Below are positions 4,115-18,974 of a stretch of DNA of 20,516 bases, one piece after another (position 1 is the stretch's first letter; every line of letters starts with the position of its first letter). Source of the DNA: a virus; IMG/VR virus record IMGVR_UViG_3300042520_001715, positions 1 to 20,516 of that record, one strand, 5' to 3'. A program made the position numbers and the translations under genes. The notes under the pieces were generated by a model. It ran no database searches. It had not been told where the DNA came from and worked only from the letters and a program-made list of their open reading frames with translations.

Positions 4115-4518
4115 TATGGAACCTGAATTTCTGTTGCTTTAATGCTGAGGTCTAACTGCGTTGTGCTTGATGCAGTCCCGAGTCGAGTCACGTAAGAACC
4201 AGTAGCACGGTCGACGTTTGGCATGATGCCGCCGGCTGTTGGTGACACCAAATACGTTTCACCGACAACCATTGTGGTTCCCACTAAAATGACAGGGCCA
4301 CCACTCGCCATGATTCCGTAACCGTCGGTCACTCCTGGCGTCATCGCGATTCCCTCAGCGGCGGCGAGTGCTAACGATGCGTTAGCATCTGCGGCGACGA
4401 ACTTGCTCGAGCTTTGCGCAAGCGGCTGACCGACTGATACCGTGCCTCCGTATTGCACCAAACGAAACTGCGTGTTCGCTGTGGGTCTGACTGCTGTAAT
4501 GCCGCTGAGATCCGCCAT
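4114..4518 (-). CDS. DUF2190-like small protein (decoration-like fold) in the tail-tip region
   Basis: This 134-residue protein is almost cysteine-free and rich in Gly, Ala, Val and Thr. It has the run QYGGTVSVGQPLAQSSSKFV, then LALAAAEGIAMTPGVTDGYG, GPVILVGTTMVVGETYLVSP, and YVTRLGTASSTTQLDLSIKA. That order (VxxGQPL, AEGIA, GPVxLVGTTMVVGETYxVSP, LGTA) reads like the DUF2190/decoration-type beta fold that usually coats capsids. Here it is placed directly after the tape measure, so a role on the tail tip or as a trimerising spike base is more likely, which is inference. The start and stop overlap both neighbours as TAATG. Confidence 0.65.
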   Translation of the reverse strand: MADLSGITAVRPTANTQFRLVQYGGTVSVGQPLAQSSSKFVAADANASLALAAAEGIAMTPGVTDGYGIMASGGPVILVGTTMVVGETYLVSPTAGGIMPNVDRATGSYVTRLGTASSTTQLDLSIKATEIQVP

Positions 4519-6260
4519 TATCTGATCCTCTTGAATCCGTTTTCTTTTGTCGCCGTCACCAGCTGCGTCAAAATCGTGGTTTGAGTTTCTGCCACTTTTA
4601 CGGCTCGCTGTTGTTCTTTGTAAAGCTGCTCCGCTTTTTTGGCAATTTCCGTTTCGCCCGGTGTAGGCTGGTCCGGCACGGCAGCTACCCCGATCTGGCT
4701 GTTGACTCTGTCGGCAGCAAATTTAGCGGCCTCTGCAGATCCGACTTCCATTCCTGCGCCCGGGCCTGCGGCGACGTCGGCGCGTCGTTGCTGTTGCTTC
4801 TGTTCCTGCTGCGTGAAGTAATCCATCGCCGCCTTGCGTGCGTTCTCCAGATCACGCTGGAACTGTTCTTCCGCTTGCTTTTCCGCTCGCTCGCGTTCTT
4901 TCTTTTCGTTCTCGATCGCTTTCAGCCGTGCTTTTTCCTGATCCTCGATTCGCTTCTTCTCGTCTTTGGCCGCCTGCTCCTGCTGTTTCTTATGTTCCTC
5001 CAGAGTCTTTCGCTGCGCTGCTGCTGCTTCCTGTGCGGCCTTTTGTTCTGCAGCCGCTACTTGCTTCGCTGCGGCTTCTCGTTTTTGCAGGTTCTTATCG
5101 GACGCTCGTGCCTTAGCGTCTTCCGCATCTCGTTCGCGTTGTTCAATTCGGTCTAGTAGCTTGTCAATTTGCGTAATGTCATTCACGCCCGTCGTGGCAG
5201 TGTTGAACACATCTCTGACAAACGCCACCATTAACGACAGCCCATCGACGACTCGTTGAATAACACTCACGATGTCGTCGAGTACAGGCTTGACTAAATC
5301 AAACGCTTCAAACAGCATTAGGCCCAATGGTGCCAATGCCTGACCCGCTGCAGCCAGTTTCTGTTCCATATCGCTCAGCGCAATGTTCATTTTACCGCTT
5401 AAAGTTTCCGACAGCCTTTCAGTCATGCCGTAGAACATTCCACCTTCTGCAGTGGCGTTTTCGAATGCTGTTCGCACTTCATCAGCCGAAATACCTCCGG
5501 CCTCCATGCGGGCTTTTAGTTCCAACAGGGTTTCGCCGGTGTCTTTGCTGATTTGCTGCAGCGGGTTGAAACCTGCATTGACCATCTGAAGCAGGTCTTG
5601 CCCCATCAAACGCCCTGCGGCCGTAGTCTGTGAAAACGCGAGCGATAGCATTTTGAATCGCTCGTTGTTACCGCCAGTGACGTCCGACAACATCTGCAGA
5701 TTCTTCTGCACGTCCTGCGCTGCGACGCCGAAACTCAGCATTGTTTTCGTGGCTTCGGATGCATTTGAAAACGTTACCGGGGACTCTGCAGCGAACTGGC
5801 GGATTTGCTCGAACAACTGCCGGCCTTCTTCTACACTGCCGGTAAGCACTTCAAAGGCTATGGTTGCGTCCTCAACCTGCGTTGCCAGTTGCAGCGATTT
5901 CGCTACGGTCTGGAATCCAATGTAAGCGGCTGCCATGCCTTTAATAGAGGATATCGCTGACGCGGAAGACGACTGAGATTCTTTCGTAGCTCTCGCTGTA
6001 TCGCGAATTGCCGGAGCGACTTGCTCATGTTTTCTCTTGAGATGCTCTACGGCATTTCCGTATTCCCTAGATTTTTTACCGGCCTCACTAAACGCACGAT
6101 TCAGCAGGTCCAGTTCCTGCTTGTACTTCTCTGCCGGCGGAACGGACTGCCGCATTATCGTGGCCACCTTTGTGACCTCGCTCTTAGCGAGATTTGCACC
6201 CTCGCTGAAGTTTGACACGTCCATTCCAAGCCGGACGTTTAATGCGGTAATCGTTGTCAT
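4518..6260 (-). CDS. Tape measure protein
   Basis: This 580-residue protein sets tail length and is threaded through the tube. The N-terminal 110 residues are helical. Residues about 125-270 carry the tape-measure N-domain style: VEDATIAFEVLTGSVEEGRQ, ESPVTFSNASEATKTMLSFG, AGRLMGQDLLQMVNAGFNPL and LLELKARMEAGGISADEVRT. A hydrophobic stretch (ALAPLGLMLFEAFDLVKPVL) follows at about 305-325. Residues about 368-498 form a long, highly charged coiled coil (such as RIEDQEKARLKAIENEKKER). A short C-terminal domain ends FKRIR. At about 0.15 nm per residue (general rule), 580 residues imply a tail of about 85 nm. It overlaps the chaperone stop by ATGA and the next gene by TAATG. No lysozyme or peptidase domain is seen. 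Confidence 0.93.
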   Translation of the reverse strand: MTTITALNVRLGMDVSNFSEGANLAKSEVTKVATIMRQSVPPAEKYKQELDLLNRAFSEAGKKSREYGNAVEHLKRKHEQVAPAIRDTARATKESQSSSASAISSIKGMAAAYIGFQTVAKSLQLATQVEDATIAFEVLTGSVEEGRQLFEQIRQFAAESPVTFSNASEATKTMLSFGVAAQDVQKNLQMLSDVTGGNNERFKMLSLAFSQTTAAGRLMGQDLLQMVNAGFNPLQQISKDTGETLLELKARMEAGGISADEVRTAFENATAEGGMFYGMTERLSETLSGKMNIALSDMEQKLAAAGQALAPLGLMLFEAFDLVKPVLDDIVSVIQRVVDGLSLMVAFVRDVFNTATTGVNDITQIDKLLDRIEQRERDAEDAKARASDKNLQKREAAAKQVAAAEQKAAQEAAAAQRKTLEEHKKQQEQAAKDEKKRIEDQEKARLKAIENEKKERERAEKQAEEQFQRDLENARKAAMDYFTQQEQKQQQRRADVAAGPGAGMEVGSAEAAKFAADRVNSQIGVAAVPDQPTPGETEIAKKAEQLYKEQQRAVKVAETQTTILTQLVTATKENGFKRIR

Positions 6261-6637
6261 GTGAACCCGAATGCTCTCTTCAGAATATCAGACTGTGCTT
6301 TCGGATGTGTTATGCCGCGAGTTTTGCGTTTCGTCCGTTTTTGCCATCGCAGTGAATCGGACGGCAAAAAATCCACCACGCTCATCGTGTCCATTTTGAC
6401 GCCTCGCGTAGCTGCCAGAATCGCACTGTTTGCGTGCACTGTCGCGGCGATCGACGCGACTTGTTCCCAGTGCGATCCGAACGGCTCACACTGGTAATAT
6501 GCCCACCATACTTCAAACACTCTTTCCGGAATTGAGTCTAACCACGCTTCCGGATCATCTATTCCAAGCTCGAGACAGACTCTGCAAGCGAACCTGAGAC
6601 GGTGGTTGAGACGGACTCCCCCAGCATCTCGGGAGCC
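6257..6637 (-). CDS. Tail assembly chaperone, T-like extension (probable -1 frameshift product)
   Basis: This is the -1 frame relative to the G-like gene, open from 6637 to the TGA at 6257. A GTG at 6520 would give 87 residues, but clear protein lies upstream of it: GIDDPEAWLDSIPERV, running into VFEVWWAYYQCEPFGSHWEQ. The WxxYYxxEPFG pattern, a helix of small residues (VASIAATVHANSAI) and VVDFLP at about two thirds are hallmarks of GT-type tail chaperones (DUF4035-like). The end is basic (KRTKRKTRGITHP). Translation therefore most likely enters by -1 frameshift from the G-like gene, giving a fused minor product. The tape measure start overlaps its stop by ATGA, the expected partner order. Confidence 0.78.
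   Translation of the reverse strand, partial: GSRDAGGVRLNHRLRFACRVCLELGIDDPEAWLDSIPERVFEVWWAYYQCEPFGSHWEQVASIAATVHANSAILAATRGVKMDTMSVVDFLPSDSLRWQKRTKRKTRGITHPKAQSDILKRAFGFT
6526..6553 (-). repeat. Hairpin beside the chaperone stop codon
   Basis: On the minus strand CCGGAA at 6553-6548 and TTCCGG at 6531-6526 form a perfect 6-base stem with a 16-base loop, beginning just after the stop of the G-like frame. It could act as a stimulatory structure for a frameshift close to the stop, but its distance to the five-G run is larger than usual. Confidence 0.4.
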
Positions 6638-6957
6638 TCACTGACTCGCGTAAACTGCTGGCATTCCTCAGACAGTTTTTGGTAGAACCCCAAATCGATC
6701 GACCCGAGCGACTTCAGTTCGGTGTCCTTGAACAGCCGCTCGCCCTCGTCATCGATCCACATGCGAGCAACAAGCAACAGAATCGCGTCGTTCAGATTTG
6801 TCGCGTTCCACTTTCCATCTTTGTCGACAAGTGACATTTGATACTGAGAAAACTCCAGCGGTGTTGGACGTTGAATCCGCACCGCATTTCCGTTGATCTC
6901 AATATCTTTTGTCGCTCGCTTTGTGAGCTTGCCTAACGTCGCTCGCGTTAGCGTCAT
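6559..6957 (-). CDS. Tail assembly chaperone, G-like part
   Basis: This 132-residue protein occupies the lambda gpG position. It opens MTLTRATLGKLTKRATKDIE, continues with VRIQRPTPLEFSQYQMSLVD, and has the helical stretch LNDAILLLVARMWIDDEGER. That length and composition match DUF-type G chaperones that bind the tape measure protein. The C-terminus is a Ser-rich linker (SVSTTVSGSLAESVSSLE) with little conserved content, typical of the region where ribosomes shift frame in this gene class. A run of five Gs (CTGGGGGAG, 6624-6616) lies there. The start overlaps the upstream stop by ATGA. The following T-like frame overlaps its 3' end in the -1 frame. Confidence 0.8.
   Translation of the reverse strand: MTLTRATLGKLTKRATKDIEINGNAVRIQRPTPLEFSQYQMSLVDKDGKWNATNLNDAILLLVARMWIDDEGERLFKDTELKSLGSIDLGFYQKLSEECQQFTRVSEAPEMLGESVSTTVSGSLAESVSSLE
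6616..6624 (-). other. Candidate -1 frameshift slippery site
   Basis: On the minus strand CTG GGG GAG in the G-like frame has a run of five Gs, the only homopolymer run of that length in the window where both frames are open (6637-6559). A -1 slip would place the ribosome in the T-like frame. It is not a canonical XXXYYYZ heptamer, since the A-site GAG would re-pair with GGA. A hairpin CCGGAA/TTCCGG (6553-6548 with 6531-6526, 16-base loop) lies about 60 bases downstream. Confidence 0.45.
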
Positions 6958-7223
6958 AGGTCGTCATCCTCTTGTGGTTGCAGGTCAATATCGACGGGCA
7001 TGACAACGCCGCCGATGGTCAGTGCTGCCGTTTTATTAACGGCCTCGATCAGTTCGGCTTTCGTGTTGTCGTCAAAGGTGACGATACACTGCAGCCAGGA
7101 ATCGGGTTCCTTTGGCAAATACCCAACCTGAATGTCATCGCAAAACACGATCCATTGACCGTGGTCGACTGGCGTTCCGTTGGGTGATTCGCCCACGTGA
7201 TCAATCAACTTGATATCCATCAT
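6954..7223 (-). CDS. Hypothetical tail-region protein (89 residues)
   Basis: The ATG at 7223 overlaps the tube stop by ATGA and the stop overlaps the chaperone start, so the gene is firmly in the operon. The product begins MMDIKLIDHVGESPNGTPVD and contains QWIVFCDDIQVGYLPKEPDS, then TFDDNTKAELIEAVN and an acidic end (LQPQEDDDL). The first part looks like beta strands, the second half like a helix. It has one conserved-looking tryptophan near position 24. No family is recognised. Position between tube and chaperone genes suggests a minor tail or tube-associated role. Confidence 0.6.
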   Translation of the reverse strand: MMDIKLIDHVGESPNGTPVDHGQWIVFCDDIQVGYLPKEPDSWLQCIVTFDDNTKAELIEAVNKTAALTIGGVVMPVDIDLQPQEDDDL

Positions 7224-7672
7224 GCTTCCCGAGTCTGTGCGAGTGATTCACCAGTCATTTTGAGGGTAAATTCAGAGTCCATCGTTTCATTGTTGGCCAT
7301 TTGAGGAAATGCCACACGGCTGAAAAATGCTTTGCCGGTGATTGTGCCGCGAGTCACTCCGCTGGTTGCAGTGCTCACCTGCGGCAACGTGACCGTCACC
7401 GTTGCAACGGTGCCGTCGATAGGCGGAACTCCCAAGGCAGCACTGAACCGCACTACTCCGCTAATTTCGTTCGGGACGGCCAAATCATGCGGGTCAACTC
7501 GCATAAAGCCAGTATCGGACAACAGCGTGACGTCTCTTTCTCCGAGCGTCCATTCGCCGGGATTGATCGAGACGATGTTTCCAGCCCATGCAGTGGTGAT
7601 GCCAGTGGTCTGTGCACCGCCCAAGGTGATCGTTGCTGTGTTTCCAGTTTTGAAACGTGTTCCGGTAGCCAT
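7220..7672 (-). CDS. Major tail (tube) protein candidate
   Basis: This 150-residue beta-rich protein has the start ATG 7672 and AGGAG 11 bases upstream. It begins MATGTRFKTGNTATITLGGA and has a GEWTLGERDVTLLSDTGF segment, like the strand-and-loop core of small siphovirus tube proteins. Its central strands are SGVVRFSAALGVPPIDGTVA and TVTVTLPQVSTATSGVTRG, and it ends MDSEFTLKMTGESL. There are no cysteines and no helical domain. Location between the tail completion gene and the chaperone pair is the fixed position of tube genes in HK97-type tails. No other gene nearby fits tube function. The primary evidence is position and fold style. Confidence 0.7.
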   Translation of the reverse strand: MATGTRFKTGNTATITLGGAQTTGITTAWAGNIVSINPGEWTLGERDVTLLSDTGFMRVDPHDLAVPNEISGVVRFSAALGVPPIDGTVATVTVTLPQVSTATSGVTRGTITGKAFFSRVAFPQMANNETMDSEFTLKMTGESLAQTREA

Positions 7673-9621: not shown

Positions 9622-9706
9622 CAAACACACCTCCGCCTATCACATCCAACTGGAACCGAGAACCCATACGATAACCGCGCCAGTCCTGCATTAACTCGAC
9701 TTGCAT
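9455..9706 (-). CDS. Small conserved phage protein of the connector region
   Basis: The ATG at 9706 begins an 83-residue frame whose first 43 residues (QVELMQDWRGYRMGSRFQL, then GGGVFDVLQRNNVARLLPE) match the style of a widespread short phage protein with a KVxxLxDWxGYxxG opening and a DVLxxRxxA end. In most phages that protein stops at about 55-65 residues. Here it runs on as a hydrophilic Ser/Asn/Arg-rich tail (SGDSPHGQSSDTTDQRTSND) that overlaps the next gene. It overlaps the end of the glycosyltransferase gene by 16 bases. Its role is unknown. The first half is convincing as protein; the tail may be fixed mainly by coding in the other frame. Confidence 0.6.
   Translation of the reverse strand: MQVELMQDWRGYRMGSRFQLDVIGGGVFDVLQRNNVARLLPEPNDANQGSGDSPHGQSSDTTDQRTSNDRRSESTAQHRGKRR
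9630..9634 (-). promoter_or_regulatory. Ribosome binding site deciding the connector gene start
   Basis: GGAGG lies 8 bases before the ATG at 9621 on the minus strand. This is the strongest Shine-Dalgarno match near the connector gene and favours ATG 9621 over the GTG at 9630, which lies only next to the motif. It sits inside the coding sequence of the upstream small gene, so ribosomes must load within an already translated mRNA. Confidence 0.6.
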
Positions 9707-10353
9707 GATTCAATCCATTCGTTCGGGTATGCGTGCACAGCTTCGTATGAGGTAGGGTCCACCATAACAACCATTTCCTCGAGATGTCCGATTCGCGTCT
9801 GGGGATCGAGATAGACGGTGTTGCCGGCTTTCTCCCATTGCTTCCAAAACCAGATGTCGTCATCGATTCGCAGATCACCCCATTCGCCGTGTTCGTCTGG
9901 CTGTGACCAGAACCAGGGCTTTGGTACGTCCTTTAGTTTTCGCAGATCGATTACGGTTAGGCCGAAGTGTGCGGTTGAGACCTGCAACGGCTCGCCCGTT
10001 ACCTCGACTGATGATTTTCCTTTGATGCTCGCCAACATCGTCTTATTGCCACGTCGGATCTGCATTGATGCGAGTGCGTCAATGTGCGGATTTGCTTCAA
10101 GCGTTCCAAGCAGCCGCATGATGTCTGAATCTGTGAACAGAGAATCTCCATCACAGATCACAGCAATATCCACTTCGCGTTCTACGGCCTGCTGCAACAT
10201 CCGCTGCATGCATTGGCCATAGAACACACCTTGCGAATCCTGTAGAGGAATCTTTGCGGATACAAATGCCGCATCAATGTGGTCTCGACAGAGTCCGTTG
10301 ATATATCGCGGCGATGTCATCATCCCGCACACTTTGACAGATTTTAAGGTCAC
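9691..10353 (-). CDS. Glycosyltransferase-like protein (GT-A fold) in the head operon
   Basis: This 220-residue protein starts at GTG 10353, with GGAG 7 bases upstream. After a first strand (SVKVCGMMTSPRY) comes a helix-rich segment, then VDIAVICDGDSLFTDSD at 61-77. CDGDS supplies the metal-binding DxD of GT-A glycosyltransferases. HFGLTVIDLRKL at 129-140 is an acceptor-side strand. DLRIDDDIWFWKQWEKAG at 160-177 gives the acidic D/E cluster, and DPQTRIGHL at 183-191 the late His that often completes the metal site. The protein fits soluble, single-domain phage glycosyltransferases. It lies between head genes, so glycosylation of a virion protein or host surface component is possible. It is not a DNA glucosyltransferase by any motif I can see. 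The substrate is unknown. Confidence 0.75.
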   Translation of the reverse strand: MTLKSVKVCGMMTSPRYINGLCRDHIDAAFVSAKIPLQDSQGVFYGQCMQRMLQQAVEREVDIAVICDGDSLFTDSDIMRLLGTLEANPHIDALASMQIRRGNKTMLASIKGKSSVEVTGEPLQVSTAHFGLTVIDLRKLKDVPKPWFWSQPDEHGEWGDLRIDDDIWFWKQWEKAGNTVYLDPQTRIGHLEEMVVMVDPTSYEAVHAYPNEWIESCKSS

Positions 10354-12823: not shown

Positions 12824-13492
12824 TTATCGGCCGAACATCGCTTTTAATTGTTGGAGTCGTATTTCGCGTGATGCAATTACTGCGGGAGTCCTGCTGCCTG
12901 CGTGCGGCTCATGAGGGTGAGTCTTATCAGGCTTTCCGCCATACATCGCTTTGGCAAACGCTGGCGCGTCGACGACAATATCACCGACCTCTGTGGCAAA
13001 GCCGGCAGCGACTGCCTCAGAGGCTGTGTACCATGTTTCCGCGTCAAGGATTTCTTTAACTGCGTTGCGGGTTTTCTTTGTTCGTTCTGTGTAGGCGTCA
13101 AGAATGGAATCGCGATATTTATCCAGCACGTCGGCCGTTTTGCGAAGCTCTTCTGCAGATCCCATGGCCATCGTCCAAGGATTGTGCACCATCATCATCG
13201 CGTTTTTTGCCATGACGACACGATCACCAGCCATGGCGATGTAGCTGGCGATTGAGTAAGCTGATGAATCCACTACGACGTCAACGCCGCCCTGATGCCG
13301 CTTGAGTGCGTTGAAGATTGCCCGCCCTTCGTCGACGCTGCCACCAGGTGATGAAATTCGCAGCGTAACTCTGCGCCCAGACATTTTGGCCAAATCAGGC
13401 AGCACTGTGGATGCGTCGATCATTCCCCAGAATGAGGAACCGATAGCGTCATAAAGAAAGATTTCGCCTGTTTCGTGATCAGCTTGGTACAT
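12824..13492 (-). CDS. ClpP-like head maturation protease
   Basis: This serine protease of the ClpP/SppA-like fold is expected to process capsid and scaffold parts during procapsid maturation. With the start at ATG 13492 (AAGG about 9 bases upstream) it has 222 residues; TTG 13528 and ATG 13522 are alternatives with longer overlap of the upstream gene. The glycine-rich oxyanion segment is ISSPGGSVDEG at 46-56. The nucleophile is S83 in AYSIASYIAMAG, the histidine H103 in MMMVHNPWT, and the third member probably D150 in EILDAETWYTA. ETWYTASEAVAAGFATEV is the standard phage ClpP signature. A Pro/His-rich tail follows the core. It lies upstream of the major capsid gene but is separated from it by a terminator. 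Confidence 0.93.
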   Translation of the reverse strand: MYQADHETGEIFLYDAIGSSFWGMIDASTVLPDLAKMSGRRVTLRISSPGGSVDEGRAIFNALKRHQGGVDVVVDSSAYSIASYIAMAGDRVVMAKNAMMMVHNPWTMAMGSAEELRKTADVLDKYRDSILDAYTERTKKTRNAVKEILDAETWYTASEAVAAGFATEVGDIVVDAPAFAKAMYGGKPDKTHPHEPHAGSRTPAVIASREIRLQQLKAMFGR

Positions 13493-14114
13493 AGTTTGCG
13501 ACCTTTTCGACAAAAGAGTCATGGACAAAAATGGAATTGACTCGTGTCGTCCCGAGTCGCGTGTAACTGTGCTCGGCCGCGATTGCTTTCAACGTCGCAG
13601 CGTTATTCTGAATTGTGAACCCATCACTTAACTGTTCACCCAGTAACCAGCTAGGAACTTTTTGAACGATATCCGCATTTTCCGGATGACATCGGTCAAA
13701 ATGCTCCACCATCACGATGTGCGGAGTGCATCTTGAGAGAACCTCGTCCAGAATAATTGAATCAATACTGTCGACGTCAATTACAACCAGCAGCGGAAAC
13801 GGTGCGAACTCTTTTACATTGTCCGGCACGAATTCGCCTCGATGTGTCGCTTTTGGGTATCTGACTATGAGCATACCAAGCGATTGTGAATCTATTTCAA
13901 ACAACAGGCACTCATTGCCGCTTTTGTAAAACGGGGCGATTGTCAGCGGTAGCGTCTCGCCGTTTCCTGCTCCTATTTCTACACATTGGCCATCCATCAC
14001 ACCGATGGCTGCGGTTATTGCCAGCAAAATACGCTGCTCGCCAAATTGCCAGCCACCGGCTTCCTTGCACAACCATTCGAATTCCGGCCGATCCGCTACA
14101 AAACCCTGATTCAT
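13479..14114 (-). CDS. SAM-dependent methyltransferase-like protein in the head operon
   Basis: This 211-residue protein has a Rossmann-type methyltransferase layout. Motif I is CVEIGAGNGE at 44-53 (SAM-binding glycine loop). An acidic position follows the second strand at E74 (LLFEIDSQS), and VVIDVDSIDS at 110-119 stands where the catalytic-side motif IV is expected. The spacing resembles FkbM-type or related small-molecule/protein methyltransferases; no DNA methylase motif (DPPY or NPPF) is visible. It sits between portal and maturation protease, overlapping the portal by ATGA. It overlaps the protease gene by 14 bases if the protease starts at 13492. The target is unknown; a capsid or surface-sugar modification is a guess from context. 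Confidence 0.65.
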   Translation of the reverse strand: MNQGFVADRPEFEWLCKEAGGWQFGEQRILLAITAAIGVMDGQCVEIGAGNGETLPLTIAPFYKSGNECLLFEIDSQSLGMLIVRYPKATHRGEFVPDNVKEFAPFPLLVVIDVDSIDSIILDEVLSRCTPHIVMVEHFDRCHPENADIVQKVPSWLLGEQLSDGFTIQNNAATLKAIAAEHSYTRLGTTRVNSIFVHDSFVEKVANYVPS

Positions 14115-17991: not shown

Positions 17992-18327
17992 TCACCGCCC
18001 CCCTGCCTGTTGCCTCGCTAGCTCAATTGATCTATGACATGTGACACACAGTGCCATGAGGTTGCTCCATTGCAACCTAAGCCATGGTGCTTCTGTAATG
18101 GGCACTATGTGGTGCACTTCCTCTGCAGCAACAGCCTTACCATTATTCGCACACTCTGTGCACAGTGGATTGTCTTTAATGAAACGATCTCGCAATTGCT
18201 GCCAGTCCCAGCCATAGCCTGCCTGTGTTGTACCTTGCCTCGCTCTTTTCCTGCCACGGCCGCACTGTGTACACTCCTTGTTTCGCAGTGCAAGCACGGC
18301 ACCACATGCACACAGCTTTAGCGTCAT
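17992..18327 (-). CDS. HNH endonuclease (terminase-associated)
   Basis: This is a 111-residue nuclease. The start at ATG 18327 makes an ATGA overlap with the upstream gene; an in-frame start 11 codons earlier is less likely. Residues 6-22 carry a zinc-ribbon-like pair (CAC and CTQC). The HNH core has CTEC at 56-59, the His-His pair in EEVHHIVPI at 69-77, Asn in SNLMALC at 88-94 and CVTCH at 94-98, so the four structural cysteines and the catalytic His/Asn/His set are present. In HK97-type cos phages, an HNH protein beside the terminase is known to help cut concatemeric DNA during packaging. The position directly ahead of both terminase genes supports that role over a homing endonuclease, although homing cannot be excluded. 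Confidence 0.9.
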   Translation of the reverse strand: MTLKLCACGAVLALRNKECTQCGRGRKRARQGTTQAGYGWDWQQLRDRFIKDNPLCTECANNGKAVAAEEVHHIVPITEAPWLRLQWSNLMALCVTCHRSIELARQQAGGR

Positions 18328-18974
18328 GTGTCTGCCTTCGGTGCTGCTACCACACTGCACACCCCTTGCAGATACATGGTCATTGGTGCTGCTGCATCAC
18401 GTAGAGCGAACCGCAGTGTTCTCTCTGATGCTGTCACTGCAGACGGATACGCAAATGTCACGACGTTGTCACTCGTTCCACCGACGGAAATATCTGCATT
18501 GTCTACTGTCGCCACATCCAACCCTGACAAAGTTTCGAAAATAATCTTTAAAGTTTTTCCGCTGAGGTCTACAGCTGTGGTTCCATCGGATTGATATACA
18601 GTAATAGTCTGACTTATCGTCTCTCCGACTACGGGCACTAACGTCACTCCGGCACTTCTGTTTGCCACGATCCCTGTGGCTGGCAGGACTGTGACCACGG
18701 TTGATGCTGCACTTACCGGATACTCATCCTGCACCAGTGTGGACCCAACCGCCAACCACCCATCCCGCACCGGCCCGACCGCATCATGCAACCGTGCTGA
18801 AGCAATGGCTGAAATGCTTTCCGCAACCGTCGCGACGAATCGACCTGAAGACGCTGGAGACTCTGACAACGCATCGCCGCCAGTGTTGATTAACACGCCC
18901 GCGGTGGTGTAGAGGTAGAGCGTCAGGCCGGTTTCACCAGTAAGTTCTGGTGCTGTCCATGCAATGTCAGCCAT
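18324..18974 (-). CDS. BppU-like baseplate or fibre-connecting protein
   Basis: This 216-residue protein appears to have two beta-rich halves. Residues about 1-95 begin MADIAWTAPELTGETGLTLY and have the style of a small beta-sandwich. Residues about 105-216 include ETISQTITVYQSDGTTAVDL, then SGKTLKIIFET, ending in LRFALRDAAAPMTMYLQGVC. That order resembles the N-terminal domain of baseplate upper proteins (BppU family), which anchor receptor-binding proteins to the tail of lactococcal-type phages. The match is by pattern memory and not by alignment. It overlaps the preceding small gene by 8 bases and the HNH gene by ATGA. It would fit as an attachment platform for the fibre proteins encoded just upstream. 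Confidence 0.55.
   Translation of the reverse strand: MADIAWTAPELTGETGLTLYLYTTAGVLINTGGDALSESPASSGRFVATVAESISAIASARLHDAVGPVRDGWLAVGSTLVQDEYPVSAASTVVTVLPATGIVANRSAGVTLVPVVGETISQTITVYQSDGTTAVDLSGKTLKIIFETLSGLDVATVDNADISVGGTSDNVVTFAYPSAVTASERTLRFALRDAAAPMTMYLQGVCSVVAAPKADT

Follow-up and report, generated by a model that had tools for sequence, protein, structure and literature searches.

A lambda G/GT-type tail assembly chaperone pair with a predicted −1 frameshift at an invariant GGGGGAG in a phage of a likely planctomycete host

Results

We analysed one window of DNA, a virus record of 20,516 bases, whose minus strand carries a head-and-tail module comprising terminase, portal, Clp-type protease, capsid, connector, tail and tape measure genes. 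A G-like tail assembly chaperone of 132 residues is the zero-frame product of 6559–6957 (minus strand, as are all features described here). The T frame is offset by −1 relative to G, and extends from 6637, directly after an upstream TGA (6640–6638), to a closing TGA (6259–6257); the T domain that would be read after a slip spans 6257–6619. Stop positions confine the stretch in which both frames are open to 6559–6637, and the original prediction had these coordinates right (G at 6957–6559, T at −1, both open only at 6637–6559). The G stop is located 19 codons past the slip site described below, and translation in silico across the shift gives a GT fusion of 233 residues. The ATG of the tape measure gene (4518–6260; TMP_3, E = 5e-21; phrog_9959, E = 2.5e-42) overlaps the T stop, forming ATGA at 6260–6257.

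On the other side of G, 7220–7672 is probably the tail tube gene, as judged by position. Profile searches returned no family match for it, its relatives sit in the same place, and its structure model was of too low quality to reveal what the protein is. Between this gene and G lies a conserved 89-residue open reading frame (6954–7223), which overlaps G by ATGA and is present in most members of the clade described below (46–99% identity), with no family match in profile searches. Elsewhere in the window, an HNH endonuclease gene (17992–18360; PF01844, E = 9.3e-10) resides near the terminase genes, a common arrangement in such phages, while the head gene cluster includes reading frames at 9691–10353 and 13479–14114 that look by eye glycosyltransferase-like and methyltransferase-like and have no significant Pfam match. 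A profile search against NCBIfam gave no useful matches, and no tRNA genes were found in the window.

G matches the phrog_344 ‘tail assembly chaperone’ profile (E = 6.1e-12), as do all 16 G sequences of relatives tested. Its AlphaFold2 model has a mean pLDDT of 77, with a C-terminal tail of very low confidence past residue 105, and the best PDB match to this model is the HK97 tail assembly chaperone (PDB ID: 2ob9; Foldseek E = 8.5e-5). G is a member of the tail assembly chaperone family, and the profile and fold matches bear out the identity first proposed from the sequence. The T domain of the window has weak matches to phrog_337 (E = 0.0018) and Phage_tail_T (E = 9e-4, below the curated Pfam cut-off), with phrog_337 matched by 12 of the 13 T family members among relatives. 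The T extension lies in the −1 frame directly ahead of the tape measure gene, which is the arrangement of lambda G and GT, and we infer a chaperone function for the pair.

To place the shift, we compared related loci. A scan of viral contigs yielded 79 T loci, of which 62 are close relatives, and every one of the 62 reads YTG GGG GAG TC(C/A) at the same position. In the window this is the heptamer GGGGGAG (6616–6622), read by the G frame as G GGG GAG, and CTGGGGGAG is at 6624–6616 as the original prediction stated. Across 36 distinct full-length sequences, the ten-base core TGGGGGAGTC (6614–6623) does not vary, constituting the longest invariant run of the alignment once its gap-rich N-terminal columns are set aside. 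The alignment of homologues that had been suggested as a check on the five-G run thereby finds it conserved. Within this core the GGG codon is fixed, as are the T-frame GGA and GTC codons. Elsewhere, none of the 28 columns whose amino acid is invariant and at least four-fold degenerate keeps to a single codon, and neither does any of the 22 two- or three-fold degenerate columns.

The frame under selection also changes at this point. Variation peaks at codon position 3 of the G frame upstream, and at G-frame position 2, that is T-frame position 3, downstream, with the flip in wobble phase located at the slip site. The frame offset and the flip together argue for a −1 frameshift, and the flip and the invariance in all 62 loci point to GGGGGAG as the shift site, in agreement with the original prediction. 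As a bare string, GGGGGAG is not rare, the window having two copies where chance alone would give 1.2; the copy at 6622–6616 is the only one inside a predicted gene, and GGG is the rarest glycine codon of the window (13%). The evidence beyond chance for the site is its conservation. The G/T overlap of the window contains no XXXYYYZ heptamer and hence no canonical X XXY YYZ site. A run, GAAAAAACC, slightly downstream in some relatives was considered as an alternative slip site and rejected, being variable and absent from the window.

In distant relatives, including Pirellulaceae prophages, the homologous position is occupied by canonical X XXY YYZ heptamers. One viral group has CTG GGA AAC TAA, and a prophage region of strain TBK1r (Planctomycetota, Pirellulaceae), which we take to be Stieleria magnilauensis, has TTG GGA AAC TAA in two copies. 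Other viral contigs have GGGAAAA, AAAAAAC or CCCAAAA there, and planctomycete genomes searched by phylum and family have GGGAAAC, GGGAAAA, AAAAAAC, AAAAAAA, AAAAAAG or CCCAAAC. One Pirellulaceae genome (L271) has a G/T overlap seemingly without a canonical heptamer, and close to the G stop its GCG GAA AAC would again require tRNA(Glu) to move from GAA to GGA. A protein tree groups the GGGGGAG members into a single clade (support 100/100) that falls among canonical lineages. GGGGGAG likely replaced a canonical site once, a direction read from a tree with long deep branches.

The two TBK1r tail-region copies (L113 and L114; CP036432.1, ∼7.95–8.01 Mb) are ∼44 kb apart. The host of the phage is likely a planctomycete, since the TBK1r prophage has a terminase near its T gene that is 36–39% identical to the terminase of the window. 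This terminase matches that of the window in two pieces within a single 731-residue frame, which suggests an inserted segment. In the phage collection, no isolate relatives matched G, T or the Stieleria T.

We then considered how T could be made other than by ribosomal slippage. Were it produced separately, by internal or coupled initiation and with no frameshift, the operon would offer a setting, as its genes overlap by ATGA and coupled initiation is therefore common here; in a minority of relatives, moreover, a possible start codon (ATG, GTG or TTG) occurs in the T frame close to the slip site. In the window, however, the first such codon is GTG 6520, which lies past the conserved DDPEAWLDSIPERV, and in 59 of 77 loci, those of the window lineage among them, the T frame has none of the three start codons between its upstream stop and the conserved core. 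T conservation begins at the slip site, ∼30 codons before GTG 6520. With no start ahead of the conserved core in the window, as first noted from the sequence, or in most relatives, separate initiation fails, and it would moreover leave without a role both the invariant site and the canonical heptamers that relatives have at the same place. We consider it very improbable. We give no more credence to slippage of RNA polymerase on the five-G run, whereby mixed mRNAs would encode GT by ordinary translation. Five G is short for this mechanism, even though the site does contain a homopolymer and other cases of bacterial recoding are known to involve slippage during transcription (PMC5009743). The homologous GGGAAAC and CCCAAAA of relatives have no long homopolymer, and the site keeps a constant phase relative to the codons G GGG GAG, both of which argue against a transcriptional origin of the fusion.

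A further question is whether a shift at GGGGGAG would be stimulated by RNA structure downstream or by an element upstream. The original prediction had proposed a hairpin, CCGGAA...TTCCGG, which is indeed present in the window at 6526–6553, 62 nt downstream of the slip site. As a stimulator it did not hold up, pairing in 61.7% of cells across 20 relatives with no covariation above shuffles, and we rejected it as a conserved element. Two other candidate stems, pairing alignment columns 22–28 with 65–71 and 39–45 with 57–63, showed no compensatory changes and nothing above shuffles. Over the 75 nt after the site, folding shows a modest gain in stability relative to shuffles (mean z −2.15) with no common structure, and a stem of 7 bp, ∼30 nt beyond the site, is paired in 84% of cells. 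Against these, the stability of the nearest 35 nt does not exceed that of shuffled sequences (mean z −0.15), the 7-bp stem has no compensatory changes and gave no signal beyond that of shuffles, and the downstream RNAalifold consensus is weak, with no covariation support. Fold stability, covariation and RNAalifold thus identify no conserved stem-loop a few nucleotides downstream, of the kind that a 3′-structure cassette would contain, and a downstream structure as the stimulator in place of the upstream element is unlikely.

The upstream candidate, missed by the original prediction, is a Shine–Dalgarno-like GAGG at 6636–6639, 13 nt upstream of the heptamer. GAGG or GGGG occurs in all 14 non-redundant clade members at an unvarying −17 to −14 relative to the heptamer. 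The predicted duplex with the anti-Shine–Dalgarno sequence has a mean energy of about −6.4 kcal/mol, and little pairing immediately upstream would compete with it. The GAG of this element comes from a Glu codon that is GAG in 30 of 30 sequences; no other of the 12 Glu columns is confined to one codon. In other lineages, about 4 of 22 sequences have a comparable element (Fisher p = 1.6e-6, a value that, given the relatedness of clade members, overstates independence). A matching anti-Shine–Dalgarno sequence, CACCTCCTTT, forms the end of Stieleria 16S rRNA. The spacing for −1 stimulation by Shine–Dalgarno elements is 9–14 nt (PMC5009743), and the 13-nt spacer falls within this range, a dnaX-like arrangement by sequence. 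GAGG is probably a frameshift stimulator.

Discussion

The comparative evidence on gene identity, frames, the position of the shift, the invariant site, the lack of a T start and the lack of a conserved hairpin is best read as a lambda G/GT-type pair with a −1 slip at GGGGGAG, aided by GAGG, to which we assign a probability of about 0.88. That slippage occurs, and how efficiently, we infer from sequence. Most ribosomes would complete G, giving the product of 132 residues. In a fraction, peptidyl-tRNA(Gly) on GGG (6621–6619) would re-pair with the overlapping GGG one base upstream, with perfect pairing, and these ribosomes would read on into T to make the 233-residue GT fusion. The slip would probably be aided by pairing of GAGG (6639–6636) with the 3′ end of 16S rRNA, and not by downstream RNA structure. 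If lambda is a guide, G would bind the tape measure protein, while the T part of GT would recruit tail tube subunits.

Two forms of the slip predict different junctions. If only the P-site tRNA(Gly) slipped, the junction would be LGGVR (VSEAPEMLGGVR), whereas a tandem slip, in which tRNA(Glu) on GAG also moved to GGA, would give LGEVR (VSEAPEMLGEVR). Re-pairing in the A site from GAG to GGA requires a G-U pair in the middle position, which counts against the overall reading; such a middle G-U pair is the explanation that PRFect offers for GGGGGAA (PMC10885494). A tentative proposal, which we think possible but hold as rather less than even, is that the clade exchanged the tandem-slip heptamer of its relatives for a slip of one tRNA, peptidyl-tRNA(Gly), on GGGG, with the Shine–Dalgarno-like element as sole stimulator and no downstream structure. 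If so, non-canonical sites could take the place of canonical ones in evolution where a 5′ stimulator already exists.

A tail chaperone frameshift is in itself textbook. What the present genes add is one homologous set in which a canonical heptamer and GGGGGAG have been interchanged, and which tests what a bacterial −1 site needs. In these phages, probably of planctomycetes, the GT fusion would escape annotation tools that recognise XXXYYYZ only.

The site had been described as new or atypical. It is atypical, having no XXXYYYZ, but ‘new’ overstated the case: a non-canonical class with GGGGGAA in the same phase is already recognised (PMC10885494, PMC5506516). In a search that covered part of the literature, we found no paper with GGGGGAG as a phage shift site; among the matches listed, the one phage paper with this string has it in a table of ribosome-binding sites and not as a shift site. 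The site is unconventional, yet with precedent, and its novelty is modest.

The slip heptamer of lambda is the canonical GGGAAAG, whereas the window has GGGGGAG and no XXXYYYZ in the overlap. The HK97-type chaperone fold is common to both. Also shared with lambda G/GT (PMC5009743) are the gene order ahead of the tape measure gene and, as predicted for the window, the production of G and a G–T fusion from one start by a shift in the −1 direction. The Pirellulaceae prophages, such as that of S. magnilauensis TBK1r, are closer, with homologous G and T (41% identity between the T domains of Stieleria and the window) and the same shift position, but their heptamers are GGGAAAC, AAAAAAC and the like, often placed immediately ahead of the G stop, whereas in the window the stop comes 19 codons later.

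The nearest precedent for the site itself lies in actinobacteriophages. The PRFect authors report about a thousand GGGGGAA (‘fivetwo’) motifs in SEA-PHAGES actinobacteriophages (PMC10885494), and in corynephage phi16 a GAGG together with GGGGGAA has been predicted, along with a pseudoknot (PMC5506516). The phi16 sequence reads GTG GGG GAA GAC TAA, in the same phase as the window, with GAGG 10 nt upstream. These sites differ from ours in their final base, which is A and not the invariant G of the window clade, placing GGGGGAG outside the GGGGGAA class; phi16 has a predicted pseudoknot and 10-nt spacing, compared with no conserved downstream structure and 13-nt spacing here; and the hosts belong to an unrelated phylum, with the stop more distant in the window clade. 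They share with the window the five-G run, the phase G GGG GAR, and the post-slip codons GGG and GGA.
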